Positions 1 through 64,000 of a stretch of 64,000 nucleotides of DNA are shown here, one piece after another. The stretch's first letter is position 1, and every line of letters starts with the position of its first letter. The translations under genes were made by a program, and so were the position numbers. This DNA comes from Bacteroidales bacterium. Lineage in GTDB: Bacteria > Bacteroidota > Bacteroidia > Bacteroidales > P3. Location: NCBI GenBank assembly GCA_017449975.1, contig JAFSYK010000034.1, positions 1-64,000 of the forward strand. The letters run 5' to 3'. Under the pieces are notes generated by a model that worked only from the letters and a program-made list of their open reading frames with translations, made no database searches and was not told the origin of the DNA.

Positions 1-19
1 AAAAATAAAGTAAAACGAA

Positions 20-152
20 GGGAAGTAAAAAAGGAAGTTAATCTTCGATGGAAGTTAAAATGGAAGTTATGTGCTTCGCACAGGACAATACAGATCATTT
101 GTCCTTTTTAACTCCCTCTTTAACTCCCATTTTAACTTCCATTTTAACTCCA
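20..152. repeat. 12-base repeat units in inverted arrangement with two small hairpins
   Basis: Units of the type GGAAGTTAAAAT lie on the plus strand at about 21-32, 33-44, 50-61 and 62-70. Four back-to-back 12-base units of the reverse complement (TTTTTAACTCCC type) lie at 105-152. The two arms can pair, for example 50-69 with 133-151. Between them are two small palindromes: GTGC-TTC-GCAC at 71-81, and AGGACAA at 82-88 pairing with TTGTCCT at 99-105. No coding sequence is apparent in 1-280. Confidence 0.85.
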
Positions 153-280
153 TAATCATTTCACCTTATTATTTTACTAGTACTTAATACAGAATCATCA
201 ATTGTAAGATATCACAAATAGCTGCCTCTGTCGGGCTTTTTTTTTTCAAAGGAAAGAAACACCGATTGCGCAATAATCAG

Positions 281-290
281 TATCTTTGCA
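281..290 (+). promoter_or_regulatory. Bacteroidetes -7 promoter element before rpoN (leaderless)
   Basis: TATCTTTGCA matches the TAnnTTTG -7 consensus. The ATG at 295 begins only six bases after the last G of the element, so transcription would start at or next to the start codon. No clear TTG -33 element is present at the usual distance. Confidence 0.65.
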
Positions 291-294
291 TTTG

Positions 295-2679
295 ATGATA
301 CGGCAGCAGCAGAAACTGAAACAGACGCTGAAATTGACTCCACAGCAGATACTGCTGATGAAGTTGATCCAGATGCCTGTCTCCGACCTGTCGCAGCATA
401 TCAAAGAGGAGGTCGTCAAAAACCCCCTTCTTGAGGAAGCCGCCACCCCCACCGTCGAGCTGCCCAACCCCACCAACGACGACAGCGACGACTGGGACGA
501 CGAGGACTACCGCTACCGCGAACAGTTGGAGCGCGACCGCAACGACCAGCGACGCGAGCGGATTTACACCGCCGAACAGTCGACCATCGAACGGTTGCTG
601 GAACAGTTGGACATGAAACCGCTCAGCGACCGCCAACGCGCCATTGCTCGTGAAATCGTGGGCAGCATCGACAACAACGGCTACCTGAGCCGCGACCTAT
701 CGCTGATCGTCAACGATATCGCCTTCCGGCAAGGGGTAGAGGTGACGCTGCAGGAGGCGGAGGCGGTACTGGCTATCGTACAACGCTGCGACCCCGTGGG
801 CATCGGTGCCCGCAACCTACAGGAGTGCTTGTCGGTACAACTGCACAATCTGGACCTCCACAGTCCGGCCCAGGACGACGCCATACGGGTGGTGGACCAC
901 CATTTCGACCTCTTCAGTCGCCACCAGTACGAGCGCATACAGGAGCGTAACGGTTGGGACAGCCAGCGGCTCGACAACGCTATACAGCTCATCCAGCAAC
1001 TCGACCCCAAGCCCGGCACCGACGACAGTCTCAGCGACAGCACTGCCCACTACATCGTCCCCGATTTCTACGTCACGACCCACGACGGCCAACTCAGCAT
1101 TGTGCCCAACGACAGCTGTCTGCCCACGCTGCAGATCAACCAATACTACGACGAACTGAATCGGCAACTGAGTGCGAGCACGCCCAAAGACGCCGGCGAA
1201 AAAGAGACGCTGAACTTTCTCCGTGCCAAGACCGAAGAGGCGCGTTCCTTCATCGAAACGCTGCAGCAGCGGAAACACACATTAGGACACATCGTCAACT
1301 ACATCGTGCGCTACCAGTCACGCTACTTCACCACCGGCGACCCCTGCGACCTGCTGCCGCTGCAGCAGAAAGAGGTGGCACAGGCCACCGGCTACGACAC
1401 CTCGACCATCTCGCGCGTGGTTAACAGCAAACACCTTCAAACGGACTTCGGCGTGGTGCCGCTCAAAGACTGTTTTACCAAGGCCGTGGAGACCGACAGC
1501 GGCGACACCGTAGGGGTCGAACATATCAAAGCGACGCTGCGTCATCTTGTCGACCACGAAGACAAGGCGCACCCGCTCACCGACGACGCGCTCACCGAGG
1601 CCATGCAACGCGAAGGCATCCCCATCGCCCGTCGCACCGTGGCCAAATATCGTGAAATGTTGGGCATCCCTGTGGGACGGCTGCGCCGACAGCTGATGGC
1701 TATCGTCATGCTGCTGGCCTGTCTGACATCCGGGACACTGCTGGCACAGGAGAACAACTACTACGACTCCATCATCAATGCCCAGCTTCGGCCACGGCAA
1801 GGCACATCGGCCAGCCAGCCGACACGCAACAGCGACAACACTCCCTATAAAAAACAGCAGAGCCAGCTGCGGCCCGTGCAGCCACCGACGCCGACGGCAC
1901 CTGTTATCGACACTGGCAACAACATGGCTGTCGGCGTGCTCTGGTACGGCAACTATTTCTCCACACACCGTGTGAAAGAGCGCACGCTACCACTCGACTC
2001 GCTGCCCGACGAGGTGAACCTGCGCCTGGTGAAGCACGACAGCGACTTCTGCTTCCCCGTGAAGAACATCATCACTTCGCCCTACGGCTGGCGGTGGGAA
2101 CGTGCCCACCGTGGCGTGGATATCCGTCTCAATGTGGGCACACCGGTCCACTGCATCTTTGCCGGCGTGGTGCGTGTGGCCTGTCCCATGGGTGCCTATG
2201 GCAACCTGGTGGTGGTGCGCCACTACAACGGCTTGGAGACTGCCTACGCCCACCTGTCGAAAATCAACGTCAAGCCGCGCCAGGTGCTACAGGCTGGCGA
2301 CGTGGTGGGACTGGGCGGCAGCACAGGCCGGTCGACAGGACCCCACCTGCACTTCGAGGTCCGTTTCATGTATGAGTCCATCGATCCCGAATGGCTGTTG
2401 GATTTTTCCAACTACACCCTGCGTACCAAACGGCTGCATCTGGACAAGAGCTACTTTGGCGTAACGCGTCCCAAGCGAGGCGAATCCATCGCCTACAAAG
2501 CCGACAAGAGCTATGTGAAGGAACAGCCTGTTTCGGACGGCAAACGCTACTACACCGCCAAAGAGGAGGACGACCTACAGCTTATCGCCATCAAATGCCG
2601 CACCACCGTGGCCAAGCTCAGAGAGCTGAACCCCGATATGAAAAAAGTGAAGCCCGGCATGAAACTGAGGGTGAAATAA
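295..2679 (+). CDS. rpoN: RNA polymerase sigma-54 factor fused in frame to a LysM/M23 peptidase
   Basis: Residues 1 to about 467 form a complete sigma-54 factor, which directs RNA polymerase to promoters opened by enhancer-binding ATPases. The glutamine-rich N-terminal activator region (RQQQKLKQTLKLTPQQ) is present, and the RpoN box ARRTVAKYRE lies near residue 446. The frame continues without a stop. At residue 468 (base 1696) an ATG opens a typical signal peptide (MAIVMLLACLTSGTLLAQ). A low-complexity linker follows, then an M23 endopeptidase domain with both zinc motifs (HRGVD near 605-609 and HLH near 684-686) and a C-terminal LysM-like domain (about 750-794). A cytoplasmic sigma factor joined to an exported peptidoglycan hydrolase is contradictory, so internal initiation at 1696 or 1708, or an indel at the junction, is likely. 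A TGA overlaps the ATG in the next frame (bases 1694-1696), as if the genes once overlapped as TGATG. ATG 295 is preferred to the TTG at 286. Confidence 0.85.
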   Translation: MIRQQQKLKQTLKLTPQQILLMKLIQMPVSDLSQHIKEEVVKNPLLEEAATPTVELPNPTNDDSDDWDDEDYRYREQLERDRNDQRRERIYTAEQSTIERLLEQLDMKPLSDRQRAIAREIVGSIDNNGYLSRDLSLIVNDIAFRQGVEVTLQEAEAVLAIVQRCDPVGIGARNLQECLSVQLHNLDLHSPAQDDAIRVVDHHFDLFSRHQYERIQERNGWDSQRLDNAIQLIQQLDPKPGTDDSLSDSTAHYIVPDFYVTTHDGQLSIVPNDSCLPTLQINQYYDELNRQLSASTPKDAGEKETLNFLRAKTEEARSFIETLQQRKHTLGHIVNYIVRYQSRYFTTGDPCDLLPLQQKEVAQATGYDTSTISRVVNSKHLQTDFGVVPLKDCFTKAVETDSGDTVGVEHIKATLRHLVDHEDKAHPLTDDALTEAMQREGIPIARRTVAKYREMLGIPVGRLRRQLMAIVMLLACLTSGTLLAQENNYYDSIINAQLRPRQGTSASQPTRNSDNTPYKKQQSQLRPVQPPTPTAPVIDTGNNMAVGVLWYGNYFSTHRVKERTLPLDSLPDEVNLRLVKHDSDFCFPVKNIITSPYGWRWERAHRGVDIRLNVGTPVHCIFAGVVRVACPMGAYGNLVVVRHYNGLETAYAHLSKINVKPRQVLQAGDVVGLGGSTGRSTGPHLHFEVRFMYESIDPEWLLDFSNYTLRTKRLHLDKSYFGVTRPKRGESIAYKADKSYVKEQPVSDGKRYYTAKEEDDLQLIAIKCRTTVAKLRELNPDMKKVKPGMKLRVK

Positions 2680-2689
2680 CCGATCTTAT

Positions 2690-2761
2690 GAAGTTAAAGT
2701 GGGAGTTAAAGTGGAAGTAAAAGTGGGAGTTAAAGTGGGAGTTAAAATGGAAGTTAAAAAT
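2690..2761. repeat. Tandem array of six 12-base units
   Basis: Six consecutive 12-base units (GAAGTTAAAGTG, GGAGTTAAAGTG, GAAGTAAAAGTG, GGAGTTAAAGTG, GGAGTTAAAATG, GAAGTTAAAAAT) fill almost the whole gap between the rpoN fusion gene and ribH. The motif is the one seen at 20-152, near 10900 and near 15780. Confidence 0.92.
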
Positions 2762-2770
2762 TGAATAATA

Positions 2771-3262: not shown

Positions 3263-3280
3263 TTCTTGAGCTGAAGACAG

Positions 3281-4234: not shown

Positions 4235-4275
4235 AAAATTAATTAAAATTTACATGCAAATTTTCTTCTAAAAAG

Positions 4276-4664: not shown

Positions 4665-4709
4665 TTCTAGATTTTCTAGATTATCTAGAATTTCTAGATT
4701 ATCTAGATT
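4665..4709. repeat. Tandem array of five 9-base TCTAGATT units
   Basis: Five exact 9-base steps (TTCTAGATT twice, ATCTAGAAT, TTCTAGATT, ATCTAGATT), each carrying the palindrome TCTAGA, followed by a long T run and eight G. They lie between the HU terminator and the 3' end of the minus-strand helicase gene. Confidence 0.92.
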
Positions 4710-9154: not shown

Positions 9155-10816
9155 ATGAAGAAATCACTATTCCTCTTGATCATGCTGGCGTTTGCATTTC
9201 CTTTCGCCATGCACGCGCAGAACGCTCCCAAGGCAGTCGTTGTTGACAGCATCACTGCCTGCGATTCACTGACTTGGATTGACGGTGTCAAATACACGGA
9301 AGACGCCAACGTGTTCTTTCCTACGGGTGACACAATGCATATCCTGGTATTGCACATCGCCAACAGCGCTGCCATCTCGGAAAATGTTGAGTTTGGCTGT
9401 TTCTACACTTGGCACGACAGCATCGTCGTCGAAAACGGCACCTATATCGACACGCTGACCACCGCGATGGGCTGCGACAGCATTGTCACCCTTGTGCTGA
9501 CGAAGAGCGGCGTCCATGCCGACACGCTGGCACCTGTGACCGCCTGCGGTTCCTACGAATGGATGGAGAACGAACTAACCGCAAGTGGCAACTACAGTGA
9601 TACCGTACACAGCGACCTGTATGACTGTGACAGCGTCACGGTGCTGCCGCTGACCATCGCCACCAGCATCAGCTTCCCCACCGACACTGTTGAGGCCTGT
9701 GGCCAGTACATTTGGCACGGTGAGACCTATACCGAGTCCGGCAACTACAACGTCATCCACAGCGCCACGGAAGTCGAGTGCGACTCCCTCTTCACGCTGG
9801 TGCTGACGTTGACCTCGTTGACCGACACGCTGCCCGAGCAGTCGTTCTGCGAAAAACTGGAATGGATCATGGGCAACGACACACTGCTCATCACCGACAG
9901 CGGTTTCTACAGCATGACCGTCGTCGACGGTGAAGGCTGCCCCACCACGACCTACCGTCAGGTGAACATCGTGGCGCTGCGTAGCGTCTTCGACACCATC
10001 GACACCGTCAAATGCGGCACCGTCACCTATCGTTTCGAGGGCGACGCCATCCGCGACCAGTATAAGATTTCGGTGGCCGACTCGACCATCTCGAAGCTGT
10101 TCCCGAACCGTACGGTCGGCGTCTGCCGCGACAGTCTCTCGGTGGTGCACTGCCATGCCAAACCGATTGCACAGCGTACCGACACCGTCGACGCTTGCGA
10201 CTTCTTCGCTTGGGAAGAGACCATCTACACCATCACCACCTTCGACTCGATTATCTATTCGAAACAAGCTGCCAACGGATGTGACAGCATCCAGCGTATG
10301 TTTATCCGCATCACCCCGTCGCCCGCCATCACCAGTGTCGGCGGCGACCTGCAGCTGGCACATGCCGGTGACGCCACCATCTATGCCACCAGCAACCAGA
10401 GCAATGCGGAATTCACTTGGGACGTCAACACCACGGGCGAAAGCTTTGAGGGCGACACCATCACGATTTACAATGTGACCGCCTCCACCGACATCCTGCT
10501 GACCGTCACCAACCCCGTTTCGGGCTGCTATACCGAACAGTGGGTGGCCGTGCTGGTTGGCGTGGGCATCGACGGAATGGAGAACACCACCCTCAACATC
10601 TATCCCAACCCGACGGCAGAGCGTCTCCATATCGAGAGCGAAGAGGCCGTCCGCGAGGCCACCATCTACAACAACCTTGGCCAGAGCGTGAGTCGCTACA
10701 ACATGGAAGGCCGCAACGAGGTTGAGGTGAGCGACCTTGCCAAAGGCGTCTACACGCTGCAGCTGCTGTTGCAGAACGGCGAGACCGTCACCCGCAAGTT
10801 TGTGGTCTCCAAGTAA
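9155..10816 (+). CDS. Secreted repeat protein with a type A T9SS sorting domain
   Basis: The signal peptide is MKKSLFLLIMLAFAFPFAMHAQ. The body consists of at least five diverged modules of about 45 residues, each with an early Cys before an aromatic strand, a central G-x-Y-x-D turn and a later CDS motif (for example TTAMGCDSIVTLVL and ECDSLFTLVLTL). Paired cysteines suggest disulfide-stabilised beta modules. The last 75 residues are a type A sorting signal (IYPNPT, then NNLGQ, then KGVYTLQL and a basic end) that directs export through the outer membrane and cleavage or attachment at the surface. An adhesin or surface-fibre role is an inference. It is a single-gene unit with promoter and terminator. 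Confidence 0.88.
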   Translation: MKKSLFLLIMLAFAFPFAMHAQNAPKAVVVDSITACDSLTWIDGVKYTEDANVFFPTGDTMHILVLHIANSAAISENVEFGCFYTWHDSIVVENGTYIDTLTTAMGCDSIVTLVLTKSGVHADTLAPVTACGSYEWMENELTASGNYSDTVHSDLYDCDSVTVLPLTIATSISFPTDTVEACGQYIWHGETYTESGNYNVIHSATEVECDSLFTLVLTLTSLTDTLPEQSFCEKLEWIMGNDTLLITDSGFYSMTVVDGEGCPTTTYRQVNIVALRSVFDTIDTVKCGTVTYRFEGDAIRDQYKISVADSTISKLFPNRTVGVCRDSLSVVHCHAKPIAQRTDTVDACDFFAWEETIYTITTFDSIIYSKQAANGCDSIQRMFIRITPSPAITSVGGDLQLAHAGDATIYATSNQSNAEFTWDVNTTGESFEGDTITIYNVTASTDILLTVTNPVSGCYTEQWVAVLVGVGIDGMENTTLNIYPNPTAERLHIESEEAVREATIYNNLGQSVSRYNMEGRNEVEVSDLAKGVYTLQLLLQNGETVTRKFVVSK

Positions 10817-10836
10817 TGTACACTATGACCCTATCG

Positions 10837-10871
10837 AGCGTTCGGCAGTGATGTCGAACGCTTTCTTTTTT
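10837..10871 (+). terminator. Rho-independent terminator after the T9SS cargo gene
   Basis: AGCGTTCG at 10837-10844 pairs with CGAACGCT at 10855-10862, followed by a T-rich tract to 10871. Confidence 0.88.
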
Positions 10872-10893
10872 AGTAACGATTAAAATCTTCGTT

Positions 10894-10983
10894 GGGAGTT
10901 AAAATGGAATTAAACTCGCTTCGCTCGTGGAAGTTAAAATGGAAGTTATGCGCTTCGCGCAGGACAATACTGGCGACTGTCCT
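10894..10983. repeat. 12-base repeat units plus two-hairpin element overlapping the apbE start
   Basis: GGAGTTAAAATG-type units at 10894-10907 are followed at 10928-10970 by a 43-base block that matches 49-91 except at two positions. The two differences are a paired change in the small stem: GTGC-TTC-GCAC there becomes GCGC-TTC-GCGC here (10950-10960). A second palindrome, AGGACA at 10961-10966 with TGTCCT at 10978-10983, is also shared. Here the element is translated as the N-terminus of ApbE. Confidence 0.85.
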
Positions 10984-12862: not shown

Positions 12863-12892
12863 GTCTAATTAGACCAATTGGACTAATTAGAC
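12863..12892. repeat. 9-base period palindromic array
   Basis: Steps of nine bases, GTCTAATTA, GACCAATTG and GACTAATTA then GAC. The first 12 bases are a perfect palindrome. The same motif recurs at 56255-56285. Confidence 0.8.
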
Positions 12893-12896
12893 AAAT

Positions 12897-12942
12897 AACA
12901 AACAAAGCGGGGGTTCCTTTCGGGACCCCCGCTTTGTTTGTT
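12897..12942. terminator. Strong bidirectional terminator between convergent genes
   Basis: An 18-base perfect stem (12897-12914 with 12925-12942) surrounds a ten-base loop. The GC-rich core GCGGGGGT/ACCCCCGC is flanked by A-rich and T-rich arms, so it works in both directions. It separates yicC (plus) from the T9SS cargo gene (minus). Confidence 0.95.
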
Positions 12943-15750: not shown

Positions 15751-15805
15751 GAGGTTAAAATTGGAGGAAGTCAAAATGGGAGTAAAAGTGGAAGTTAAAA
15801 TGGAC
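15751..15805. repeat. 12-base repeat units before the TPR lipoprotein gene
   Basis: Four or so imperfect units of the GGAAGTTAAAATG family (GAGGTTAAAATT, GGAAGTCAAAATG, GGAGTAAAAGTG, GAAGTTAAAATG) end three bases before ATG 15808. Confidence 0.8.
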
Positions 15806-15807
15806 AA

Positions 15808-17475
15808 ATGAAACGGATGAAACAATTCCCCTACATAATAATATGTGTAGTACTGCTTGCAGCGGTTGCAGCAGGCTGCAAGAGCCCCCAATCCACCAGT
15901 CAGGCGACAAAACGCATCGAACGACCTGTCGCCAAGGAGGTGAGCGATGCCACCCTGCAGACCGAAGCCCTGCTGATTGAAGCCAAGATGCAACAGGAAG
16001 CTGGCAACTTCGAACAGGCCATGGCCGGCTACCGACAAATTGTGAAGCGCGACAACGGCTGTGCCGCCGCGCACTACGAGCTGGCCGTCATGCTGCTGGA
16101 GACCGGTGCATCGGACAGTGCGCTATATCACAGCCAACTGGCCGCAACGCTGGTGCCTGAAAATATCTGGTACAAACTGCTGCTGGTTGACATCTACGAG
16201 CAACGCTATAACCGTAAAGCGGTGGCCAGCACCTGGGAATCCATTGTAGCCACCCAGCCCGACCACAAAGAATACTATCTCCAGCTGGCCAACGCCTATC
16301 TGCAGATTGGCGACGCCGACCATGCCATCGACGCCTTAAACCGCATGGAGAAGCGTTGGGGCATGAGTGAAGAGGTGACGCTGCAGAAACAAAAGATATG
16401 GAAGTCGGCAGGCAAACCCCAGAACGCCATACGCGAGTTGGAGAAACTGGCCAAAAGCATGCCCGAGGACACCCGCTACAGCGCCATGGTGGCGGAATCC
16501 TACATGCAGCAGAAGGACTACAAGAGTGCCAAGCCGTACTATGACAAGATTGCCCAGCAGCATCCCGATGACGAATACATCCACATCTCGCTGGCCAACT
16601 ACTACAAGCTGACGGGCGCACCGCAGCAGGCAATCAAGGAACTGTCCACGGGATTCCGCAACTCCGGCCTCAGCTGTATCGACAAAATACAGATACTGAC
16701 CTCGTTCTACACCAACGAAGAGTTCTACGACACCTATGCCCCTGCCACCTTCGACCTGGTGGACACCATTGTGCGCTACTGTGACGACAGCAGCAGCTAT
16801 GCGCTCTTCTATGCCGACATACTGATGCGCCGCGACCGTAGCGAGGAGGCGCTACCCTGGATACGGCTGTATCTGCGCAGCGACAGCAGTCAGTACGAAG
16901 CCTGGGAGGCGTTGCTGATCTGCGAATGGTCCGCTGACGACAGCGCCCTGGAGTACGACGCGACGCTGGTGAAGACGCTGTTCCCCTTCCACACCCTCCC
17001 CTACTATCTCCTGGCCGTGAAAGCGCACAACCGCAAGGATTACGACACCGTCATCACATTGATGGAGCGTTGCCAGAAGATGGGATTCCGCAACGGCTAT
17101 CTGGAAAGCGACTGCTATGAAATATTAGGCAGCGCTTACTACGAGACCGGACAGGTGGAAAAAGCGTGGAAATGCTTTGACCGCTGCCTGCAGCTGCAGC
17201 CCGACCAAATCTATGTGTTGAACAACTACGCCTACTATCTCAGCGAGCAACCCGACGTCACGCCCGAACAGTTGGCGAAAGCCGAGCAGATGTCGCGCAA
17301 GACCATCGAGAAAGAGCCCGACAACGCCACCTTCCTGGACACCTACGCCTGGATTCTGCACAAGATGCACCGCGACCGCGAAGCGCTGTCCTACATGAAA
17401 CGCGCCATCGAGAAAGACACCCAGCAGAGCGAGACGCTACAGAAACACTATCAAGTTATCCTCAGCAACCAATGA
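15808..17475 (+). CDS. Tetratricopeptide-repeat lipoprotein
   Basis: The N-terminus MKRMKQFPYIIICVVLLAAVAAGC is a lipoprotein signal with a canonical lipobox, so the mature protein is membrane anchored. The remaining 530 residues are almost entirely TPR-like helices, for example EQAMAGYRQIVKRDNGCAA and GQVEKAWKCFDRCLQLQPDQ. Proteins of this kind sit beside DUF4292 genes in Bacteroidetes, as here, where the DUF4292 gene overlaps its end by four bases. A scaffold role in envelope assembly is plausible but not shown. The start could also be the Met at codon 4. Confidence 0.88.
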   Translation: MKRMKQFPYIIICVVLLAAVAAGCKSPQSTSQATKRIERPVAKEVSDATLQTEALLIEAKMQQEAGNFEQAMAGYRQIVKRDNGCAAAHYELAVMLLETGASDSALYHSQLAATLVPENIWYKLLLVDIYEQRYNRKAVASTWESIVATQPDHKEYYLQLANAYLQIGDADHAIDALNRMEKRWGMSEEVTLQKQKIWKSAGKPQNAIRELEKLAKSMPEDTRYSAMVAESYMQQKDYKSAKPYYDKIAQQHPDDEYIHISLANYYKLTGAPQQAIKELSTGFRNSGLSCIDKIQILTSFYTNEEFYDTYAPATFDLVDTIVRYCDDSSSYALFYADILMRRDRSEEALPWIRLYLRSDSSQYEAWEALLICEWSADDSALEYDATLVKTLFPFHTLPYYLLAVKAHNRKDYDTVITLMERCQKMGFRNGYLESDCYEILGSAYYETGQVEKAWKCFDRCLQLQPDQIYVLNNYAYYLSEQPDVTPEQLAKAEQMSRKTIEKEPDNATFLDTYAWILHKMHRDREALSYMKRAIEKDTQQSETLQKHYQVILSNQ

Positions 17476-18765: not shown

Positions 18766-19211
18766 GCCTTTTCGACAACCCCGACGAATACTTTATGCAA
18801 CAGGCCCTGCGCGAAGCACGGGCAGCGATGGCTGAGGGTGAGATTCCCGTCGGTGCCGTAGTGGTGAGCCAGGACAGCATACTGGCACGCTGCCACAACA
18901 ACACGGAACGGCTGCATGACGTCACCGCACACGCTGAGATGATGGCCATCACCGCCGCCACCGAGGTTCTCGGAGCCAAATACCTTACCGACTGCACGCT
19001 GTATGTCACCCTGGAGCCCTGCATCATGTGTGCCGGTGCACTGGGATGGGCACAGATCGGTCGCATCGTCTACGGTGCCGCCGACCCGCGCCGCGGCTTC
19101 ACACAGGTAAAAGGGACCGTGCTGCACCCCAAGACAGCGGTGAGTGGCGGCGTCATGGCGGAAGAGTGCGAAGCGTTGCTGAAGACGTTTTTCAAGGGGA
19201 AAAGAGGGTGA
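18762..19211 (+). CDS. tadA: tRNA-specific adenosine-34 deaminase
   Basis: TadA converts the wobble adenosine of tRNA-Arg(ACG) to inosine. The 149-residue protein has the zinc-dependent deaminase motifs: His57-Ala-Glu in TAHAEMMA and Pro86-Cys87-x-x-Cys90 in EPCIMCAGA, plus GEIPVGAVVV near the start and the ARG-type DPRRGF loop. ATGA overlap with the previous gene implies translational coupling, although the functions are unrelated. Its stop lies just before the 9-base GATAATGGG array. Confidence 0.95.
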   Translation: MSLFDNPDEYFMQQALREARAAMAEGEIPVGAVVVSQDSILARCHNNTERLHDVTAHAEMMAITAATEVLGAKYLTDCTLYVTLEPCIMCAGALGWAQIGRIVYGAADPRRGFTQVKGTVLHPKTAVSGGVMAEECEALLKTFFKGKRG

Positions 19212-19212
19212 G

Positions 19213-19257
19213 GATAATGGGGATAATGGGGATAATGGGCTTAATGGGTTTAATGGG
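19213..19257. repeat. Tandem array of five 9-base GATAATGGG units
   Basis: GATAATGGG three times, then CTTAATGGG and TTTAATGGG, in exact 9-base steps, start immediately after the tadA stop codon. Confidence 0.93.
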
Positions 19258-19325: not shown

Positions 19326-20216
19326 ATGAAACCTACTTTATTGGTTCTGGCTGCCGGCATGGGCAGCCGTTATGGCGGACTCAAACAGATGGACGGTGTG
19401 GGTCCTAACGGTGAAATCATCATGGACTACAGCATCCAGGACGCCATCCACGCCGGTTTTGGCAAAGTGGTGTTCGTCATCCGCCACTCCTTTGCCGAGG
19501 CGTTCAAACAGCACATCAACGCCGACCACTTCGGCAACCGTATCGCGGTGGAATATGTCTACCAGGAGCTGGACATGCTGCCTGCCGGCTTCAGCGTCCC
19601 CGAGGGTCGTGAGAAACCCTGGGGCACCAACCACGCCATCCTTATGGCCAAGGAGGCCATCCACGAACCTTTCGCCGTCATCAACGCCGACGACTTCTAC
19701 GGTCGCGACGCCTTTGTGGTGATGGCCGACTACTTGCGTGGCCTGGACGGCAAGAAGGGCGACTACTGCATGGTGGGCTACCGGCTGGAGAACACGCTCA
19801 GCGAGAACGGCACCGTGAGCCGCGGCGTCTGCGAGACCGACGCACAAGGACTGCTGGTCGGCATGACCGAGCGCACCAGCATCGGACGCACCGCCAACGG
19901 CATCGAATACAAGGAGGCCGACGGATCGATGCATCCCCTTGCCGCCGACGCCACGGTGAGCATGAACCTTTTCGGCTTCACGCCCGACTATTTCGTGGAG
20001 AGCGAGAAACTGTTTGTCGATTTCCTGAAGGAGCACGGCAGCGAGCTGAAGTCGGAATACTACATTCCCTTTGCCGTCAACACCTTTATCCATAGCGGCT
20101 ACGCCACCATGCGTGTGCTGAAGACCACGGCACAGTGGTTCGGTGTCACCTACAAAGAGGACCGCCCGATGGTAGTGGAACGGCTGCGCAAGTTGCATGC
20201 CGATGGCGTCTATTGA
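19326..20216 (+). CDS. Nucleotidyltransferase of the sugar-phosphate type
   Basis: The 296-residue protein begins MKPTLLVLAAGMGSRYGGLKQ, the nucleotide-binding signature of NTP-transferase-fold enzymes that activate sugar phosphates or choline phosphate. INADDFYGRDA carries the metal-binding Asp residues. Close relatives are conserved across Bacteroidetes, where the substrate is generally unassigned. A link to cell-envelope sugar metabolism is likely. The LicA-like kinase at 59 kb could supply a phosphorylated substrate, but that is speculative. A gap of about 115 bases, partly repeats, separates it from tadA. Confidence 0.82.
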   Translation: MKPTLLVLAAGMGSRYGGLKQMDGVGPNGEIIMDYSIQDAIHAGFGKVVFVIRHSFAEAFKQHINADHFGNRIAVEYVYQELDMLPAGFSVPEGREKPWGTNHAILMAKEAIHEPFAVINADDFYGRDAFVVMADYLRGLDGKKGDYCMVGYRLENTLSENGTVSRGVCETDAQGLLVGMTERTSIGRTANGIEYKEADGSMHPLAADATVSMNLFGFTPDYFVESEKLFVDFLKEHGSELKSEYYIPFAVNTFIHSGYATMRVLKTTAQWFGVTYKEDRPMVVERLRKLHADGVY

Positions 20217-23508: not shown

Positions 23509-23523
23509 ATAATAAATCATAAG

Positions 23524-23573
23524 AAGCTCTAGGAAAACCTGGGATCTCCTAGGCCATCCTAGAGCTTCCTACA
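23524..23573. repeat. 10-base period array with an 11-base inverted repeat
   Basis: AAGCTCTAGGA at 23524-23534 is perfectly complementary to TCCTAGAGCTT at 23557-23567. The same stretch reads as 10-base steps (CCTGGGATCT, CCTAGGCCAT, CCTAGAGCTT, CCTACAATAA). It lies between rpsB and tsf without a T run, so it is not an obvious terminator; it may be an mRNA hairpin. Confidence 0.85.
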
Positions 23574-25360: not shown

Positions 25361-26269
25361 ATGAACACCGTCAACCTTCGCTTCAAATCTAATCGTGTGC
25401 GGGATATCATACAGCTCTTCCACGAGGAGCTGGATGCACCGTATGGAAGCGGCGAGGTGAGCGTGTTCTGCGCGATGCTTTTCGAGGCCTTTCTCGGCTG
25501 GGACAAGGTACGTCTGATGACGAGCCGCGAGGAGACCATCAACCAGAGCGACCTGCTGCGTTTCCACTGGGTGTTGGAGGACCTGAAACAGCACCGTCCC
25601 ATCCAACATATCATCGGCTACACCGATTTCTGCGGCTGCCGCATCGAGGTGAACCCCGACGTGCTCATCCCCCGTCCCGAGACGGAAGAGATGGTGGGGT
25701 GGCTGTGCGCCCAGCAAACAGAGAGCCCTACCACCGTGTTGGACCTCTGCACTGGAAGCGGCTGCATCGCCATCGCGCTGAAAAGAGCATTCCCGCTGTC
25801 AATGGTGACGGCTGTCGACCTGTCGGAGGCGGCACTGGCAACAGCCCGCCGCAATGCCCATAACAACGGTGTGGAGGTGCGTTTTGTGAAAGGGGATGTT
25901 TTGGGGATGGGGTCGGACTTGTCGGACCAGTCGGACGAGTCAGACTTGTCGGACTTGTCAGACACTTTTTCAATTATCATTAGCAATCCTCCTTATATCT
26001 GCGACAGGGAGCGGGTGGCGATGCGGCGCAATGTGCTGGACTATGAGCCGGAGATGGCGTTGTTTGTGCCAGACAACGACCCGCTGCGATTCTACAAGGC
26101 GATAGCATCCATCGCACGGCAACGGCTACAGCGCGACGGACTGCTGGTTGTGGAAATCAACGAAGCCCTCTCCGAAGAGGTCTGTGCCCTGTTTCGGGAG
26201 CAGGGACTGCAACCGCAGCTGCACGAAGACTTCCGTGGCAAGTCGCGGTGGGTCAGCGCCAGCCGTTAG
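25361..26269 (+). CDS. prmC: Release factor N5-glutamine methyltransferase
   Basis: PrmC methylates the Gln of the GGQ loop in release factors RF1 and RF2. The 302-residue protein has an N-terminal helical substrate domain, DVLIPRPETEEMV, the SAM-binding motif VLDLCTGSGCIAIAL and the catalytic NPPY (Asn209 in ISNPPYICDRE). Between the SAM-binding core and NPPY the chain carries a run of Ser-Asp triplets (SDLSDQSDESDLSDLSD) encoded by six 9-base repeat units, an apparent insertion near residues 184-202. Its last four bases overlap the convergent dtd gene. Confidence 0.94.
   Translation: MNTVNLRFKSNRVRDIIQLFHEELDAPYGSGEVSVFCAMLFEAFLGWDKVRLMTSREETINQSDLLRFHWVLEDLKQHRPIQHIIGYTDFCGCRIEVNPDVLIPRPETEEMVGWLCAQQTESPTTVLDLCTGSGCIAIALKRAFPLSMVTAVDLSEAALATARRNAHNNGVEVRFVKGDVLGMGSDLSDQSDESDLSDLSDTFSIIISNPPYICDRERVAMRRNVLDYEPEMALFVPDNDPLRFYKAIASIARQRLQRDGLLVVEINEALSEEVCALFREQGLQPQLHEDFRGKSRWVSASR
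25912..25965. repeat. Six in-frame 9-base GTCGGACNN units in prmC
   Basis: GTCGGACTT, GTCGGACCA, GTCGGACGA, GTCAGACTT, GTCGGACTT and GTCAGACAC in exact 9-base steps, translated as repeating Ser-Asp-x. Confidence 0.95.
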
Positions 26270-29031: not shown

Positions 29032-29087
29032 GGGAGTGCGTTATTGTGGGAGTGCGTTAGTGTGTTAATGTGGGAGTGGGTGGGAGT
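29032..29087. repeat. 8-base period array between yigZ and uvrD
   Basis: Seven 8-base steps: GGGAGTGC, GTTATTGT, GGGAGTGC, GTTAGTGT, GTTAATGT, GGGAGTGG, GTGGGAGT. It fills the whole gap between the uvrD start and the yigZ stop. Confidence 0.87.
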
Positions 29088-33271: not shown

Positions 33272-34120
33272 TTAAACAGCCACCTCACCTTTGATGTGTG
33301 GATGCGGGTTGTAATTCTCCAGCGTGAAGTCTTCGTATTGGAAACCGAAGATGTCCTTCACTGCAGGGTTGATGCGCATGGTAGGCAGCGGCCGCGGGTC
33401 GCGCGTAAGCTGCAGGCGGCACTGCTCGACATGGTTGCTGTAGATGTGGGCGTCGCCCAGCGTGTGGATGAAATCGCCCGGCTCCAGATTGCAAACCTGT
33501 GCCACCATCATCGTCAGCAGCGAATAGCTGGCGATGTTGAACGGCACACCGAGAAAGATGTCGGCGCTACGCTGGTAGAGCTGACAGGAGAGCCTGCCTT
33601 TAGCAGGCAATTCTGAATTTTGAATTCTGAATTCTGAATCTGCCGAGGCCGGCGGCTCCACATAGAACTGGAAGAGGCAGTGGCAGGGTGGCAACGCCAT
33701 CTCGGCCATCTCGGCGGGGTTCCAGGCCGTCACCATCAGTCGACGGCTGTCGGGGTTGGCCTTGATCTGCTGTACGAGCTGCGCAATCTGGTCGATGCTG
33801 CCGCCGTGGCCGTCGGGCCACGAGCGCCACTGGCTGCCGTATACAGGCCCCAGGTCGCCGTTGGCGTCGGCCCACTCGTCCCAGATGGAGACGCCGTGGT
33901 CCTTCAGATATTTGATATTCGTGTCACCCCGCAGGAACCACAGCAGCTCATAGATGATGGAGCGCAGGTGCAGCTTCTTGGTAGTGAGCAGCGGGAAGCC
34001 GTCGCTCAACGGGAAGCGCATCTGATATCCAAACGTGCTGATGGTGCCCGTCCCCGTGCGGTCGCACTTGGTGGTACCCGTTTCGAGGACATGTTGGAGC
34101 AGGTTGAGATATTGTTGCAT
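33272..34120 (-). CDS. thyA: Thymidylate synthase
   Basis: ThyA methylates dUMP to dTMP with methylenetetrahydrofolate. The 282-residue protein has all core motifs: [28 protein letters not shown]-type ([11 protein letters not shown]), the active-site Cys in [12 protein letters not shown], and [22 protein letters not shown]. It is about 18 residues longer than the 264-residue norm. The excess lies between FQFYV and LSCQLYQRS, where the usual short turn is replaced by [20 protein letters not shown], partly encoded by four 7-base repeats. ATG 34120 was chosen as it starts the conserved sequence and sits 12 bases after a -7 element. Confidence 0.95.
33610..33637. repeat. Four 7-base ATTCTGA units inside thyA
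   Basis: ATTCTGA, ATTTTGA, ATTCTGA and ATTCTGA in exact 7-base steps, in the thyA loop insertion. A related 7-base motif (GATTCAA twice, 33247-33260) straddles the manC start and the thyA-manC gap. Confidence 0.92.
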
Positions 34121-34132
34121 AATGAGGGTATA

Positions 34133-34140
34133 CAAAGGTA
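34133..34140 (-). promoter_or_regulatory. -7 element of the thyA operon
   Basis: On the minus strand TACCTTTG, 12 bases upstream of ATG 34120. The -33 element is not clear. Confidence 0.6.
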
Positions 34141-36103: not shown

Positions 36104-38971
36104 ATGGCAGACGAAGTAAAAAGCATCCGACTTAACAAAGCCGCCAAGGAGCTGAACGTAGGTATTGAGAGCCTCGTTGAGCATCTGGCCAAGAACGGCC
36201 ACCAGGTGGAAAAGAACCCCAATACCAAACTGACCCCCGAGCAGTACGACCTGCTGTCGAAGGCGTTCCAGGCGGAGCGTGCCGTCAAGGAGCAGGCCGA
36301 CAAGATTGAGATTACGCCCAGTTCCAACAGCGTCGTGATTGAAGCCAACACGATGGCCGACCAGACGCCCAGCCACGATGAGGAGCTGATCATCAAGACG
36401 GTGAGCATGAAACCCATCGTTGCCGCACCGGCCAAAGAAGAGCCGAAGAAAGCAGAGGCCGAGGAGCCCGTCGTGGAGGAGCCTGCTGTCGTCGAGACAG
36501 CGGAGCCGGAACCCGAGCCGGAGGTGGAAGTGGAAGCGCCTGCCGCCACAATGCCTGAACCCGAACCGGCACCGGAGCCGGAACCCGCAACGAAAGCGGA
36601 GAGTGTCAGCACCGAAGGTGGATTGAAGATTGTCGACAAGATTGACCTGAGTGCCATCAACACCAAGATACGTCCCGACAAGAAGCCCAAAAACAAGAAG
36701 ACTGCGGAGAAAGCCGCCGAGAAGGAGGCCAAACCCAAGAAAGAGAAACCGGCAGCCGCTCCCCTGCCCGTCGCTCCCATACCGCAGCCGGAGGCAAAGC
36801 CCGAAGCGAAAGCCGCTCCCGCCAAGCCTGCTCCCGAATTCATCGAGACCCAGTACACCAAGCTGGAAGGTCCGAAAGTGGTCAGCAAGATTGACCTGAG
36901 TCAGTTCGAGAAACCCAAGACAGAATCGAGCGAGAAAAAGAAACGCAAACGTATCAAGAAAGAGGGCGTCAAAGTCAGCGACGCCGCCATCAAGGGCATC
37001 ACCAGCGGCAGCGCCACGGTGAAGAGCAAATCGCAGAAGAACAAGGCTGCCAAAAAGCCCGAGATTGACGACAACGAGATTGAGAAGCAGATCCGCGACA
37101 CTCTGGCCCGCCTGGGTACCATGGGCAAGTCGAAGACCTCGAAGCACAACCGTGAGAAACGTCAGAAGGTGCAGAAGCGTATCGAGGAGGAACAAATCAA
37201 CGAGATGCAGAGCCAGAAGACGTTGCAGGTGACGGAGTTCGTCACCGCCAACGAGTTGGCCACCATGATGAACACCCCCGTCACGCAGATCATCAGCACC
37301 TGCATGTCGGTGGGTATCTTCGTCAGCATCAACCAGCGACTGGATGCCGAGACCATCAAACTTATCGCCGACGAATTCGGCTATGAAATCAACTTTGCCA
37401 GCGCCGACGTCGTCGACGAGCTGAACCGCATCGAAGAGGAAGACCGTCCCGAAGACATGGTGCTGCGCAACCCCATCATCACCGTCATGGGTCATGTCGA
37501 CCACGGTAAGACATCGCTGCTCGACTACATCCGCAAGACCAACGTCATCGCTGGCGAGGCGGGTGGTATCACCCAGCACATCGGTGCTTACGAGGTGAGC
37601 ACCGCCGACGGGCGTAAGATTACCTTCCTCGACACCCCCGGCCACGAGGCTTTCACCGCCATGCGTGCCCGTGGTGCCAAGGTGACTGATATCGCCATCA
37701 TCGTCATCGCCGCCGACGACAAAATCATGCCGCAGACCGTTGAGGCCATCAACCACGCACAGGCTGCCGGCGTGCCCATCGTCTTTGCCATCAACAAAAT
37801 CGACAAACCCGGCGCCGACCCCGACCGCATCAAGACGGAGCTGGCCAACATGAACCTGCTCGTCGAGGAGTGGGGCGGCAAATACCAGAGCCAGGACATC
37901 AGCGCCAAGAAAGGTATCGGCGTGGAAGAGCTGCTGGAGAAGGTGCTGTTGCAGGCCGACATCATGGAACTGAAAGGCAACCCCAAGAAACGTGCCAAAG
38001 GTACGGTGCTGGAGAGCTCACTCGACAAAGGTCGCGGCTATATCGCCAAACTGCTGGTCGAGGACGGCACCATCCGCAAGGGCGACCCCATTGTGGCTGG
38101 CGCCATCAGCGGACGTGTTCGCGCCATGTACAACGAACGCAACCAGGAAGTCCTGGCCGCCGGCCCGTCGCAGCCCGTGCTGCTGCTGGGTCTCACCGGT
38201 GCCTGCCAGGCTGGCGACACCTTCAACATCACCGAGAACGAGAAGGAGGCTAAAGATATCGCCGCCAAGCGTACCCAGCTACAGCGCGAGATGGGTCTCC
38301 GCACCCAGACGCACCTCACCCTCGAGGAGATTGGCCGCCGTCGTGCTTTGGGCAACTTCAAGGAGTTGAACATCATCGTCAAGGGCGACGTGGACGGTTC
38401 TGTCGAAGCTTTGAGCGATTCGCTGCTCAAGCTCAGCAACGAGGAGGTGCAGGTCAACGTCATCCACAAAGCCGTGGGTCAAATCTCCGAGAACGATGTG
38501 CTGCTGGCCGAATCGTCGGACGCCATCATCATCGGCTTCCAGGTGCGTCCCTCCGTGGGTGCCCGCAAGATGGCCGAGACCGAACATATCGACATCCGTC
38601 TCTACAGCATCATCTACGATGCCATCAACGAGTTGAAGGACGCCATCGAGGGTATGTTGGCCCCCGAGACGCAAGAGAAGATCGTGGCCAACCTCGAGAT
38701 CCGCGAGACCTTCAAGATCACCAAGGTCGGCACCATCGCCGGCTGTATGTGTCTGGATGGCAAGATTACCCGCAGCCACAACGTGCGTATCATCCGCGAC
38801 GGTATTGTGGTCTACACCGGCAAGCTGGCATCGCTCAAACGCTTCAAGGATGATGTGAAGGAGGTGGTCAGCGGTCAAGAGTGCGGCTTGAACATCGAGA
38901 ACTTCAACGACATCAAGGTCGGCGACATCGTCGAAGCCTACGAGGTGATTGAGATCAAGAGGAAATTATGA
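36104..38971 (+). CDS. infB: Translation initiation factor IF-2
   Basis: IF-2 brings initiator tRNA to the 30S subunit. The 955-residue protein has an N-terminal IF2_N helical domain ([20 protein letters not shown]) and a long, highly charged linker rich in Pro, Glu, Ala and Lys (about 85-380). The GTPase domain starts [16 protein letters not shown] near residue 462, with DTPGHEAF and NKIDKP; domains II to IV follow to the C-terminus. Its stop codon TGA is the first three bases of an 8-base tandem repeat array. Confidence 0.96.
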
Positions 38972-39073
38972 TTGCTTGAATGTTTGATTGCATGAATGCA
39001 TGAGTGGCTGTCGCATCAAATACTCAAACAATCAAACATTCACACAATCACACAATCAAGCAACCACAATCAA
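38969..39073. repeat. 8-base period array with inverted second half
   Basis: Five 8-base steps on one strand (TGATTGCT, TGAATGTT, TGATTGCA, TGAATGCA, TGAGTGGC) are followed from 39018 by steps of the complementary type (AAATACTC, AAACAATC, AAACATTC, ACACAATC twice, AAGCAACC). The halves can form a long imperfect hairpin downstream of infB. The array starts in the infB stop codon and ends at the tRNA-Arg gene. Confidence 0.9.
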
Positions 39074-40089: not shown

Positions 40090-40445
40090 GGTATTTTGAT
40101 TTAGTAGTTAAGTAGGTATGTAGTTAAGTAGTTAAGGCAAATGATAGAATTGGTTATGGGTTAGGGGTTATTGGTTATTGAAATTTAGTAATTAAGTAGA
40201 CAGTAGTTAAGTAGTTAAGGCAAATGATAGAATTGGTTATGGGTTAGGGGTTATTGGTTATTGAAATTTAGTAGTTAAGTAGACAGTAGTTAAGTAGTTA
40301 AGGCAAATGATAGAATTGGTTATGGGTTAGGGGTTATTGGTTATTGAAATTTAGTAATTAAGTAGACAGTAGTTAAGTAGTTAAGGCAAATGATAGAATT
40401 GGTTATTGGTTAGGGGTTATTGAGATTTAGTAGTTAAGACAATAC
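40090..40445. repeat. 83-base direct repeats built from 7- and 8-base units
   Basis: An 83-base unit starts at 40141, 40224, 40307 and (partly) 40390, with very few differences. Each unit contains a heptamer run (GGTTATG, GGTTAGG, GGTTATT, GGTTATT) and an octamer run (TAGTTAAG types). This fills the 370-base gap between tRNA-His and the methyltransferase gene; no gene is seen in it. The unit is not a multiple of three and has stops in all frames. Confidence 0.95.
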
Positions 40446-41195: not shown

Positions 41196-41330
41196 GATTT
41201 AGTAGTTAAGTAGTTATGTAGTTAAGGCAAATGTATAAAAATGGTTATGGGTTAGGGGTTATTGAGAAAAGGTTATTGGTTAGGGGTTATTGGTTATTGA
41301 GATTTGGTTAGGGGTTATTGAGAATAATTG
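41196..41330. repeat. Degenerate copies of the 7/8-base repeats
   Basis: TAGTTAAG-type octamers at about 41200-41228, then several GGTTATG/GGTTAGG/GGTTATT heptamer runs to about 41320. They are the same motifs as at 40090-40445, on the other side of the methyltransferase gene. Confidence 0.85.
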
Positions 41331-44249: not shown

Positions 44250-44276
44250 CAATTCATCATTTACTTGCGCAATAGC

Positions 44277-44316
44277 AATAACGCAATAACACATTAACAC
44301 ATTAACGCAATTATAT
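44277..44316. repeat. 8-base period array in the iorA leader
   Basis: AATAACGC, AATAACAC, ATTAACAC, ATTAACGC, AATTATAT in exact 8-base steps, ending one base before ATG 44318. Confidence 0.88.
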
Positions 44317-45904: not shown

Positions 45905-46050
45905 TGATTAACCAAGTAGTTAAGTAGACAGTAGTTAAGTAATTAAGACAATATAACCACTGCAGCAAACCCGCGACAGGTGCATTTGTCTTAACTACTG
46001 CCCGCAGGGCGAGTGAAGCGATAACTACCTACCTACTTACCTACCTAAAA
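45905..46050. repeat. Octamer repeats with inverted copies between iorA and iorB
   Basis: TAGTTAAG-type octamers at 45915-45945 (CAGTAGTTAAG, then TAATTAAGACAA) are followed by the inverted form TTGTCTTAACTACTG at about 45988-46002 and TACC/TACT tracts to about 46047. The halves can pair. The motif is shared with 40090-40445. Confidence 0.85.
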
Positions 46051-56254: not shown

Positions 56255-56285
56255 AAGTCCAGTTAGACTGATTCGTCCAATTAGT
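56255..56285. repeat. 9-base period array
   Basis: AGTCCAGTT, AGACTGATT, CGTCCAATT in 9-base steps, then AGTTT. The motif is that of 12863-12892, more than 43 kb away. Confidence 0.72.
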
Positions 56286-59859: not shown

Positions 59860-59867
59860 TACAATCG

Positions 59868-59899
59868 TAATAACGTTATCACGTAATTACGTTATCACG
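59868..59899. repeat. 8-base period array between the kinase gene and rbfA
   Basis: TAATAACG, TTATCACG, TAATTACG, TTATCACG in exact 8-base steps, ending 14 bases before rbfA. Confidence 0.9.
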
Positions 59900-59913
59900 A
59901 AAAAAAAGAAGCC

Positions 59914-60258
59914 ATGCAGACCACCCGACAGAACAAGATTTCCCGTCTCATCCAGACCGACCTCGGCGACATCTTCGTCCGCGAAATGAAGTCGACGTTG
60001 GGCCAGTCGCTGATTACCGTCACCAAGGTCACCATCACCTCCGACCTCTCCATCGCCCGCATCTATGTGAGCATCATGCCGCTGGGCGGCGCCACCAAAG
60101 AGACGGTCATGCAGGCCATCGCCGACAACATCGGCGACATCCGTCGCCGGCTGGGACTGCGCGAGGGCAAGCAGCTGCGCATCATCCCGCATCTGGAGTT
60201 CTACCTCGACGACTCGCTCGACTACATCGAGAATATCGAACGACTGCTGAAAAACTAA
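59914..60258 (+). CDS. rbfA: Ribosome-binding factor A
   Basis: RbfA binds 30S precursors during late maturation of 16S rRNA. The 114-residue protein has the KH-like fold with RQNKISRLIQTDLGDIFVRE, VTITSDLSIARIYVSIMP and RIIPHLEFYLDDSLDYIENI, where the last motif is diagnostic. It precedes the permease gene by six bases, a Bacteroidetes-typical pair. Confidence 0.93.
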   Translation: MQTTRQNKISRLIQTDLGDIFVREMKSTLGQSLITVTKVTITSDLSIARIYVSIMPLGGATKETVMQAIADNIGDIRRRLGLREGKQLRIIPHLEFYLDDSLDYIENIERLLKN

Positions 60259-60264
60259 CCCGCC

Positions 60265-62014: not shown

Positions 62015-62042
62015 TTTTGCTTTTCGGATAAAGGGTTCATGT

Positions 62043-62078
62043 AATCGGAGCAATCAGAGCACTCCGAGTATTCAGAAA
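62043..62078. repeat. 9-base period array between lepA and the membrane-protein gene
   Basis: AATCGGAGC, AATCAGAGC, ACTCCGAGT, ATTCAGAAA in 9-base steps. The second half is partly the complement of the first (GGAGC and ACTCC). Confidence 0.75.
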
Positions 62079-62092
62079 CTAATGTCTCATCA

Positions 62093-63868: not shown

Positions 63869-63872
63869 GTTG

Positions 63873-63880
63873 CAAAGATA
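63873..63880 (-). promoter_or_regulatory. -7 element of lepA (leaderless)
   Basis: On the minus strand TATCTTTG, then four bases (CAAC), then ATG 63868. No TTG -33 element is obvious. Confidence 0.7.
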
Positions 63881-63914
63881 CAAAAATGAGTGGGAAAGAT
63901 TGCTATTTTTTTCG

Positions 63915-63922
63915 TATCTTTG
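63915..63922 (+). promoter_or_regulatory. -7 element of the rightmost gene
   Basis: TATCTTTG followed by CA, 35 bases upstream of ATG 63958. It is divergent from the lepA promoter. Confidence 0.65.
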
Positions 63923-63957
63923 CAAGTTGCGATATCATAATCGCACTAAACAATAGC

Positions 63958-64000
63958 ATGTCTCCCTCCAGAGGGGACCCATTTGACGTTATCATCATAG
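63958..64000 (+). CDS. N-terminal fragment of a flavoprotein, possibly MnmG
   Basis: Only the first 14 codons lie in the window: MSPSRGDPFDVIII. The FDVIII strand is typical of the FAD-binding N-terminus of MnmG (GidA) and related flavoproteins, but the Gly-rich loop that would settle it lies beyond the end. The first codons are encoded by a small palindrome (CCCTCCAGAGGGG, 63962-63975), similar in style to the repeats elsewhere. Confidence 0.4.
   Translation, partial: MSPSRGDPFDVIII

Follow-up and report, generated by a model that had tools for sequence, protein, structure and literature searches.

Short intergenic tandem arrays of a Bacteroidales genome as probable arms of small, IVS-like mobile elements with S23-type genes

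Short tandem arrays, each with its own motif and unit length, are scattered over a 64-kb stretch of Bacteroidales DNA (64,000 nucleotides (nt); hereafter the window), which makes up most of contig C102 in a genome of 2.31 Mb on 103 contigs. In relatives of this organism such arrays flank S23-type genes as inverted arms, a relation that could not be seen by an earlier note made from the letters of the window, and with a probability of roughly 70% they are motif-specific arms belonging to numerous small mobile elements of the foldback type, which resemble the intervening sequences (IVSs) of rRNA. A complete element consists of one small gene, mostly of the S23/IVP family, with an array on either side, the two being inverted to each other and each repeating a unit of 7-12 nt about 4-5 times. 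Its two arms match, its motif is specific to it, and motif and unit length follow the lineage and class of the encoded protein. Arrays of the same motif are scattered through intergenic gaps as gene-less pairs or single arms, and a gap that is filled in one species is bare or differently filled in a sister species. Sequence comparison of such sites suggests that the elements move.

S23/IVP Genes Between Inverted Arrays

Behind the IF-2 gene, several relatives encode a four-helix-bundle protein of the S23/IVP family, with a GT-rich array on one side of its gene and a CA-rich array on the other. S23 genes were collected as PF05635 matches in 41 genomes of one genus, which supplies most of the data; forty species of that genus other than the window's own were searched. 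Gene calls throughout are those of a home-made caller. For each gene, 300 bp of upstream sequence were aligned with 300 bp of downstream sequence in reverse complement, and alignments scoring at least 14 were counted as arms. Four matches with internal stops (L144, L147, L148, and L150) were excluded beforehand, and the 72 loci tested are the best-scoring of more than 150 S23 matches listed. Inverted arms are found at 56 of these 72 loci, compared with 2.7% of mismatched upstream/downstream pairs. Ordinary genes of the same genomes have them in 21 of 805 cases, five of which are themselves S23-type, as judged from the proteins by eye. The motifs vary between loci and agree within a locus (for example TAGTGGG, GTAGTTAA, TTGAGAA, TGTTGATA, GGTTATA, and GGGAGTGAGA). 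Relative to the S23 gene, the left arm has more G than C at 53 of the 56 loci, more C than G at one, and equal numbers at two.

S23 proteins, whose solved relatives are 2gsc and 2rld, occur here in a short form, scoring above the cut-offs of both PF05635 and TIGR02436, and in a long form, which lies under the PF05635 cut-off and over that of TIGR02436 and has the TIGR04258 suffix domain. A vertically inherited paralogue (L099 type) has no arms. The genome of the window itself has seven PF05635 matches. One S23 match of another species (L138; G010 C1:12635-12952) lies within an open frame of 553 amino acids and is perhaps a fusion.

Motif and Unit Length Follow the Protein

Among 1320 between-genome pairs whose proteins are under 85% identical, arm similarity correlates with protein identity (r = 0.42); in the corresponding Mantel test none of 2000 permutations was as high, the highest giving 0.118. 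Unit length goes with the class of protein. Among the arrays beside short S23 genes, 111 have a period of 7, 8, 14, or 15 nt and 26 a period of 9 or 10 nt, whereas the corresponding numbers beside long S23 genes are 4 and 52. The arrays of long S23 genes are built of palindromic 9- or 10-nt units (TCTAGA, GATAGA, CCTAGG, ACTAGT, and CCCATTAGAC), and inverted pairs flank 13 of 28 such loci (L251, with stops, and L247, with a short flank, being excluded) against 6.5% of mismatched pairs. Paired arms of short S23 genes have a median length of 4.3 units, 26 of 47 lying between 4 and 5, a value to be read with caution since the score threshold sets the minimum arm length.

Arrays in the Window and Its Genome

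The earlier note had listed 19 arrays in the window, and most of them exist by independent detection: Tandem Repeats Finder (score at least 30) gives a row at 15 of the 19 sites, the one at position 20 being counted by its right arm (106-151), and no row with the listed motif at 10894, 15751, 23524, and 56255. Self-match at lags 5-15, the detector used for the array counts of the genome samples below, places an array within 60 bp of 10 of the 19 sites at its strict threshold, at which the window holds 19 arrays. The permissive threshold recovers 18 of the 19 sites and gives 85 arrays in the window, so that it is weak evidence. At 56255 this detector finds no array at either threshold.

The arrays are also far beyond chance. 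In a first sample, gaps totalling 104.8 kb contain 88 arrays, where dinucleotide shuffles give a mean of 0.33, and genes totalling 328 kb contain 41, where the value is again 0.33. In a larger sample of 813 kb of the same genome, the gaps (152.1 kb) have 209 arrays and their dinucleotide shuffle has 1, the genes (660 kb) have 80 compared with 0, and 150 of 495 gaps have at least one. This sample is not random, and the array density is no unbiased genome estimate, because many contigs were picked for known arrays or S23 genes. The 209 arrays have periods of 7 nt (72), 9 nt (56), 8 nt (40), 14 nt (19), 15 nt (11), 12 nt (6), and others (5). Their vocabulary of motifs is limited, and the recurrence of motifs at distant sites noticed before holds genome-wide: the genome has 32 exact copies of AGTAGTTAAGTAGTTA and none of its backward reading, and the motif is present in 10 of 36 other genomes of the genus and in none of 24 genomes from other families. 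The HIP1-type repeat GCGATCGC has 0 sites within the window.

These arrays resemble those beside S23-type genes. When compared with S23-type flanking arrays of other genomes, 167 of the 209 match at a score of at least 16, against 33 when the unit columns are permuted. Since arrays are common in gaps anyway, libraries of equal size were also compared: 45 gap arrays from stretches of 20 relatives match 17.7% of the own arrays, and S23-flanking subsets match 46-65%. Within the window, 12 of the 14 arrays above threshold match the S23-flanking library, the remaining two (39016 and 44275) scoring just 10.5 and 11.5; the array at 39016 has the motif of the own S23 locus L098, which was excluded from the library.

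The further proposal that units are palindromic or appear in inverted halves stands in part. Among 321 gaps of 60-400 bp, 23 have halves that are inverted copies of each other (score at least 14), compared with 0.9% of mismatched halves, and a part of these 23 are simple hairpins or belong to a different inverted-repeat element; palindromic units belong mainly to the 9-10 nt families and are not a general rule. In co-directional gaps, arrays with more G than C lie closer to the stop codon and those with more C than G closer to the start codon in 22 + 22 cases, with the opposite placement in 8 + 10 and three undecided, a polarity that suggested inverted pairs spanning a gap.

Two other kinds of inverted repeat were met in the course of these comparisons. 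A separate repeated element with inverted AGAAGCTGTTTAAATTTGATT arms at a spacing of 122 nt occupies L039 6777-7056, L040 3589-3794, L209 3962-4145, and other stretches of the own genome. In G029, L090 has two copies of a near-perfect hairpin (10782-10874 and 19616-19708), in which four copies of the 11-nt unit TGTTCTTCGATT face four of AATCGAAGAACA; arrays of period 11 also occur in stretches from G024, G012, G015, and other genomes.

Filled, Truncated, Gene-Less, and Empty Sites

The closest relative found, G031, keeps the gene order of the window over 29-46.6 kb. As the earlier note had expected of such comparisons, arrays differ between relatives at the same gap: the orthologous gaps of G031 are without the window arrays at 38.97, 40.1, 41.2, 44.3, and 45.9 kb, and promoter-like stretches and tRNAs are conserved despite the missing arrays. 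In the 45.9-kb gap of G031, inspection by eye shows another short repeat, similar to GTCAGAC.

Three sites illustrate the range of states between species. Behind IF-2, a full S23 element is present in G021, G027, G018, and G002 and, by coordinates, in G004, G064, and G035. In G033 the right array cuts the S23 gene short, G014 has CA-type arrays only, the window has the arms only, and G034 has a bare stretch of 17 bp up to the tRNA. At a second site (L123), an S23 element of 728 bp in G021 is absent in G028, which has a gap of 5 bp; the same site measures 31 bp in G017 and 1.8 kb in G027. At a third, an S23 element of 596 bp is common to G027 and G028 and absent in G017 (45 bp), whereas the gap of G018 has 136 bp without that family and that of G021 an arms-only element of another family. 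When the S23 locus L130 is used as a query with its flanks, at least 114 matches are found in G027, at least 167 in G028, at least 101 in G021, at least 26 in G017, and at least 3 in G018. Array copy number thus varies between lineages.

The arms-only element of G021 and the one behind IF-2 in the window have the core GAGTGGCTGNCGCA in common. This core adjoins arrays in 34 of 40 occurrences at 30 loci, overlapping loci being counted repeatedly, and is found with three different arm motifs, so that arms look as if they were rewritten or swapped around a fixed core. At L332, L340, and L345 (G002 C3) and at L327 (G023), it stands unchanged beside 7-nt arms other than the usual TTGATTGC. As a genus-wide marker the core was rejected: the bare pattern occurs at 36 places and its backward control at 23, and the evidence accordingly lies in its context, not in its count.

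Beyond the Genus and Beyond S23

The arrangement is not confined to the genus. A search of 148 genomes across the phylum gave 30 S23 loci; arms are present at 14 of them, against 1.0% of mismatched pairs. S23 relatives on plasmids are mostly cyanobacterial (29 records); at 17 loci drawn from 18 of the 29 records, the unannotated L239 being left out, flanks are inverted (score at least 12) in 11 cases against 9.9% of mismatched pairs, and the arms are heptamers such as GGGAGTA, GGGAACA, AGGTGAC, and GCTAAAA. Three of these heptamer-armed plasmid genes (L224, L225, and L230) lie inside operons, flanked by cas6 and cas4 in Pseudanabaena and Anabaena sp. 90 and by cas10/cmr2 and a cmr3-family gene in Picosynechococcus.

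A second armed family surfaced in the control scan of ordinary genes. It is GxxExxY (TIGR04256; PF13366/PDDEXK_3), of the PD-(D/E)XK nuclease superfamily, and 17 of 25 of its loci have arms against 5% of mismatched pairs, L288 (stop) and the fragments L296-L299 being excluded. Its left arm has more C than G at 12 loci, more G than C at three, and equal numbers at two, which is opposite to S23.

Points Against the Element Reading

Several results weigh against taking the arrays as arms of mobile elements. First, the association is incomplete. Arms stay below the threshold at 16 of the 72 S23 loci of the genus and at 16 of the 30 of the phylum, 42 of the 209 own arrays have no S23-flank match at score 16, and clean inverted pairs, present in no more than 23 of 321 gaps, are not the rule for array-bearing gaps. 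Second, some arrays are without a matching gene: the own genome has 32 AGTAGTTAAGTAGTTA sites, yet none of its seven PF05635 matches is in the subfamily that bears this motif in relatives, and the 11-nt hairpin arrays of G029 and other genomes have no assigned gene. Third, the opposite polarity of the GxxExxY arms implies that one protein cannot be the common mover. Finally, the 'empty' 120 bp of G018 at the L123 site hold TGTTGATA-like remnants, and by eye no target-site duplication, the mark of a MITE or insertion sequence, is seen at filled and empty sites, which diverge by 5-20%, the sequences compared being only about 79-93% identical.

Alternative Explanations

The best-surviving alternative, which we nevertheless consider improbable, is a regulatory RNA system, in which S23-type proteins are RNA-binding regulators, the arrays flanking their genes are autoregulatory, dispersed arrays are regulon or processing sites, and gain and loss are turnover of the regulon. 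The earlier note had likewise offered a regulatory code in mRNA ends, and some observations would agree with it, in that arrays abut stop and start codons with the polarity given above for co-directional gaps and three window sites have predicted RNA folds with z values of -3.9, -4.7, and -8.8. (A fold of the L112 stretch gave z -0.33; this stretch was badly chosen and is not certain to hold both arms.) All three frames are closed in 30 of 53 left arms, where 15.4 are expected from shuffles, and in 14 of 53 right arms. The link between motif and protein, and a ring-shaped fold facing paired arms of about 4-5 units, would also suit a regulator. Mismatches within arms, however, show no bias to G-U wobble, with 56 against 68 (p = 0.32) in the genus and 19 against 19 in the phylum, which gives no support to selection for an RNA stem and leaves copying across a hairpin of DNA just as likely. 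The regulatory idea is further opposed by the presence and absence of whole elements at orthologous gaps, by the many AGTAGTTA arrays in an own genome without an S23 protein of that subfamily, and by the arms of GxxExxY genes, members of a nuclease superfamily. In the same alignments, a left-arm A is opposite a right-arm A in 73 of the aligned letters and a T opposite a T in 28, which is a bias between the strands.

Somewhat less probable again is that the host makes hairpin arrays by slippage and hairpin template switching, and that S23 and GxxExxY genes just insert, or are tolerated, in the loops. In rRNA, IVSs do replace small loops of helices (PMC4990558), and the arms-only cores occur with three arm motifs, which implies that rewriting of arms may not depend on the sequence between them. 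On the other hand, motif and unit length follow the lineage and class of the protein, so that arms serving as a mere target would require homing of each gene to its cognate array, and at two sites sister species have a bare gap with no hairpin.

Independent microsatellites arising by slipped-strand mispairing are very improbable as the sole cause. The arrays are imperfect and variable in copy number, and an 83-bp block of the window (40099-40422) is a plain tandem duplication; slippage may still alter copy number. The recurrence of motifs, the matching inverted arms around one gene family, the tie between motif and protein, and the contrast of filled and empty sites all contradict it as the only cause; slippage alone is ruled out by the excess over shuffles and by the arm counts of S23 loci compared with those of ordinary genes. 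The earlier statement that slippage of the ordinary kind accounts for neither the inverted halves nor the recurrence is thereby upheld.

Template copying by a reverse transcriptase in the manner of a diversity-generating retroelement (DGR) has hardly any probability left. One S23 protein (P0001) weakly matches the accessory models NF033474 (34.7 bits, cut-off 80) and PF22296 (34.1, cut-off 40), whereas PF00078 matches nothing in 25 of the genus's 41 genomes, including G002, which is 98% complete and has 18 S23 matches. This contradicts the reading, save for an enzyme of a type missed by PF00078 or one encoded in unassembled parts, and no reverse transcriptase is required. Of the process writing short repeats that had been suggested, the writing remains in the sense that array families accompany element families, and the reverse transcriptase as its writer is not supported.

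Proposed Mechanism and Significance

If the arrays are arms of mobile elements, the encoded protein would recognise the repeat unit of its own arms, conceivably with each subunit of the pentameric ring known for the S23 fold taking one unit. Such a protein might fold or protect the hairpin of the element, as DNA or RNA, or recruit host functions to it, and full and gene-less copies alike would then spread. Likeness between arms may be kept by copying across the hairpin, and arms-only forms may arise by internal deletion. Insertion between co-transcribed genes would be tolerated thanks to the stop codons supplied by the left arm and the G-poor leader supplied by the right; an insertion after a stop codon could be harmless given that many left arms close all frames.

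The element reading offers a testable origin for the tandem repeats in the gaps of many bacterial genomes, so far read as regulatory sites or G-quadruplexes. It also gives the widespread S23/IVP and GxxExxY families of unknown function a first role based on context, as readers or spreaders of a cognate repeat, and provides dozens of natural protein-motif pairs with which to study nucleic-acid reading by four-helix-bundle rings, among them the related DGR Avd. A wider proposal, for which we would give slightly worse than even chances, is that the scattered short tandem repeats of Bacteroidota and Cyanobacteria might all be motif-specific mobile elements, or remnants of such, from a single superfamily whose spread is due to proteins with no known transposase chemistry (S23/IVP rings and GxxExxY/PDDEXK_3), each reading its own unit; the IVSs of rRNA would then be those special members that happened to land there, and DGR Avd a domesticated relative.

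Elements and Arrays of the Window

The window, which encodes type IX secretion sorting domains typical of Bacteroidota and in which a search for known RNA families finds two tRNAs only and no rRNA, has three arms-only elements. The one at 26..172 is of a 12-nt family, GGAAGTTAAAAT ... ATTTTAACTCCC with inner GGACAATA ... TTTGTCC, and has its left array at 48-69 and its right array at 103-149. It was recognised by inverted arms (48-69/121-142), an RNA fold of z -8.8, and the motif of S23 locus L109. The element in the gap between IF-2 and tRNA-Arg (38965..39070) consists of a left arm of TTGATTGC type (38969-39003), the core GAGTGGCTGTCGCATCAAATACTC, and a right arm (39016-39058), and was recognised by inverted arms (38965-39006/39029-39070), the orthologous series, the core family, and an RNA fold of z -3.9. 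The third (45915..46047), of the AGTAGTTA family with inner AAGACAATA ... TTTGTCTT, was recognised by the fold of 45911-46045 (z -4.7) and by S23 locus L113; it is missing from the orthologous gap of G031.

Other arrays match the flanks of S23 loci elsewhere. The 12-nt array AGTTAAAGTGGG (2692..2759), just past the stop codon at 2679, matches a flank of L109, and two 9-nt arrays match flanks of long-S23 loci: TCTAGATTT (4665..4709) in a convergent gap that of L257, and GGATAATGG (19212..19257), straight after the stop codon at 19211, that of L269. Nearly four copies (97%) of the 83-bp block at 40099..40422 contain 8-nt AGTAGTTA and 7-nt GGTTATTG arrays, whose motifs match the flanks of L136, L113, and L120. 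The block is thus a composite of two arrays, and composite arrays can be amplified blockwise. At 41201..41324 a AGTAGTTA array is followed by GGTTATTG-type arrays, and the motifs of this stretch match the flanks of L113 and L120. The 8-nt array CGTAATAACGTTATCA (59866..59899) is the same as that beside the genome's own S23-like gene L102 (CGTTATAACGTAATAACG). An imperfect 10-nt inverted stretch of CCTAGG type (23520..23571; inverted score 12.5) is weak, as is its comparison with the CCTAGG 10-nt arrays flanking the long-S23 locus L250.

The remaining arrays are described by position. A 9-nt array of the AATTAGACC family (12867..12896) adjoins a separate terminator-like hairpin (12897-12942), and the 8-nt array GCAATAAC (44275..44306) lies 11 bp ahead of the start codon at 44318, in a gap whose G031 orthologue is without it. 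Two arrays fall within called genes, as listed earlier at 25912 and 33610: the 9-nt GTCGGACTT (25912..25963; gene 25361-26269) and the 7-nt AATTCTG (33609..33639; gene 33272-34135). The 8-nt array GGGAGTGCGTTAGTGT (29032..29072) was delimited by Tandem Repeats Finder. Weak cases are a 12-nt array of the GGAAGTTAAAAT family followed by GGACAATAC (10928..10948), a 12-nt array ending 3 bp ahead of the gene at 15808 (15769..15804), and a 9-nt array of TCGGAGCAA type (62043..62076).

Relation to Known Systems

Searches of the open-licence literature of PubMed Central (PMC), subscription journals and preprints being outside their scope, gave no paper linking these repeats to S23 or GxxExxY genes. 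The nearest known system is the IVS of rRNA, which, according to PMC4990558, carries an S23p open reading frame (ORF), is bordered by complementary sequences forming a stem, occurs sporadically, and has been called parasitic or selfish; the same paper describes a Xanthomonas protein of the S23 fold as a toroidal homopentamer. The elements here likewise have an S23/IVP ORF (PF05635, TIGR02436), and complementary ends at the 56 armed loci of the genus. In contrast to known IVSs, which sit in rRNA helices, the loci examined here, not all 72 checked individually, lie between protein genes or beside tRNA, and they differ in arms of short tandem repeats, motif-specific families, gene-less copies, and a second gene family (GxxExxY). 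As they are not located in rRNA, they are termed 'IVS-like'. Excision by RNase III is a further mark of an IVS, and on this point the elements here offer predicted folds. PF05635 resembles Avd of DGRs according to PMC10053308; a DGR has a reverse transcriptase, for which most genomes of the genus give no PF00078 match, as noted above.

The known short tandem (heptamer) repeats bear the name STRR. The arrays share with heptamer repeats an intergenic location, several motifs per genome, and a patchy distribution that differs between close relatives, and 72 of the 209 own arrays are intergenic 7-nt arrays. Heptamer repeats are recorded from Beggiatoaceae, Cyanobacteria, and some Bacteroidetes (PMC4679880) and also from Xanthomonas and Nostoc (PMC4692102), are read as regulatory sites or G-quadruplexes (PMC4679880, PMC4692102), and are generally not found associated with mobile elements (PMC4692102). 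The difference lies in the inverted pairs around S23-type genes and in the additional units of 8-12 nt found here.

Two further systems combine a gene with inverted repeats. The arrays here are tandem, and the genes that they flank belong to PF05635 or PF13366, S23 having no known catalysis, which sets them apart from REP/RAYT systems, in which a gene is flanked by inverted copies of a repeat also scattered between genes. There, several cognate pairs of gene and repeat exist, the REPs are single palindromes, and the RAYTs are Y1 transposases. Eukaryotic foldback elements have long inverted termini made of short tandem repeats and occur in copies with and without an inner gene; the elements described here share this plan and differ in being bacterial and far smaller, in carrying other cargo, and in a motif that varies from element to element.

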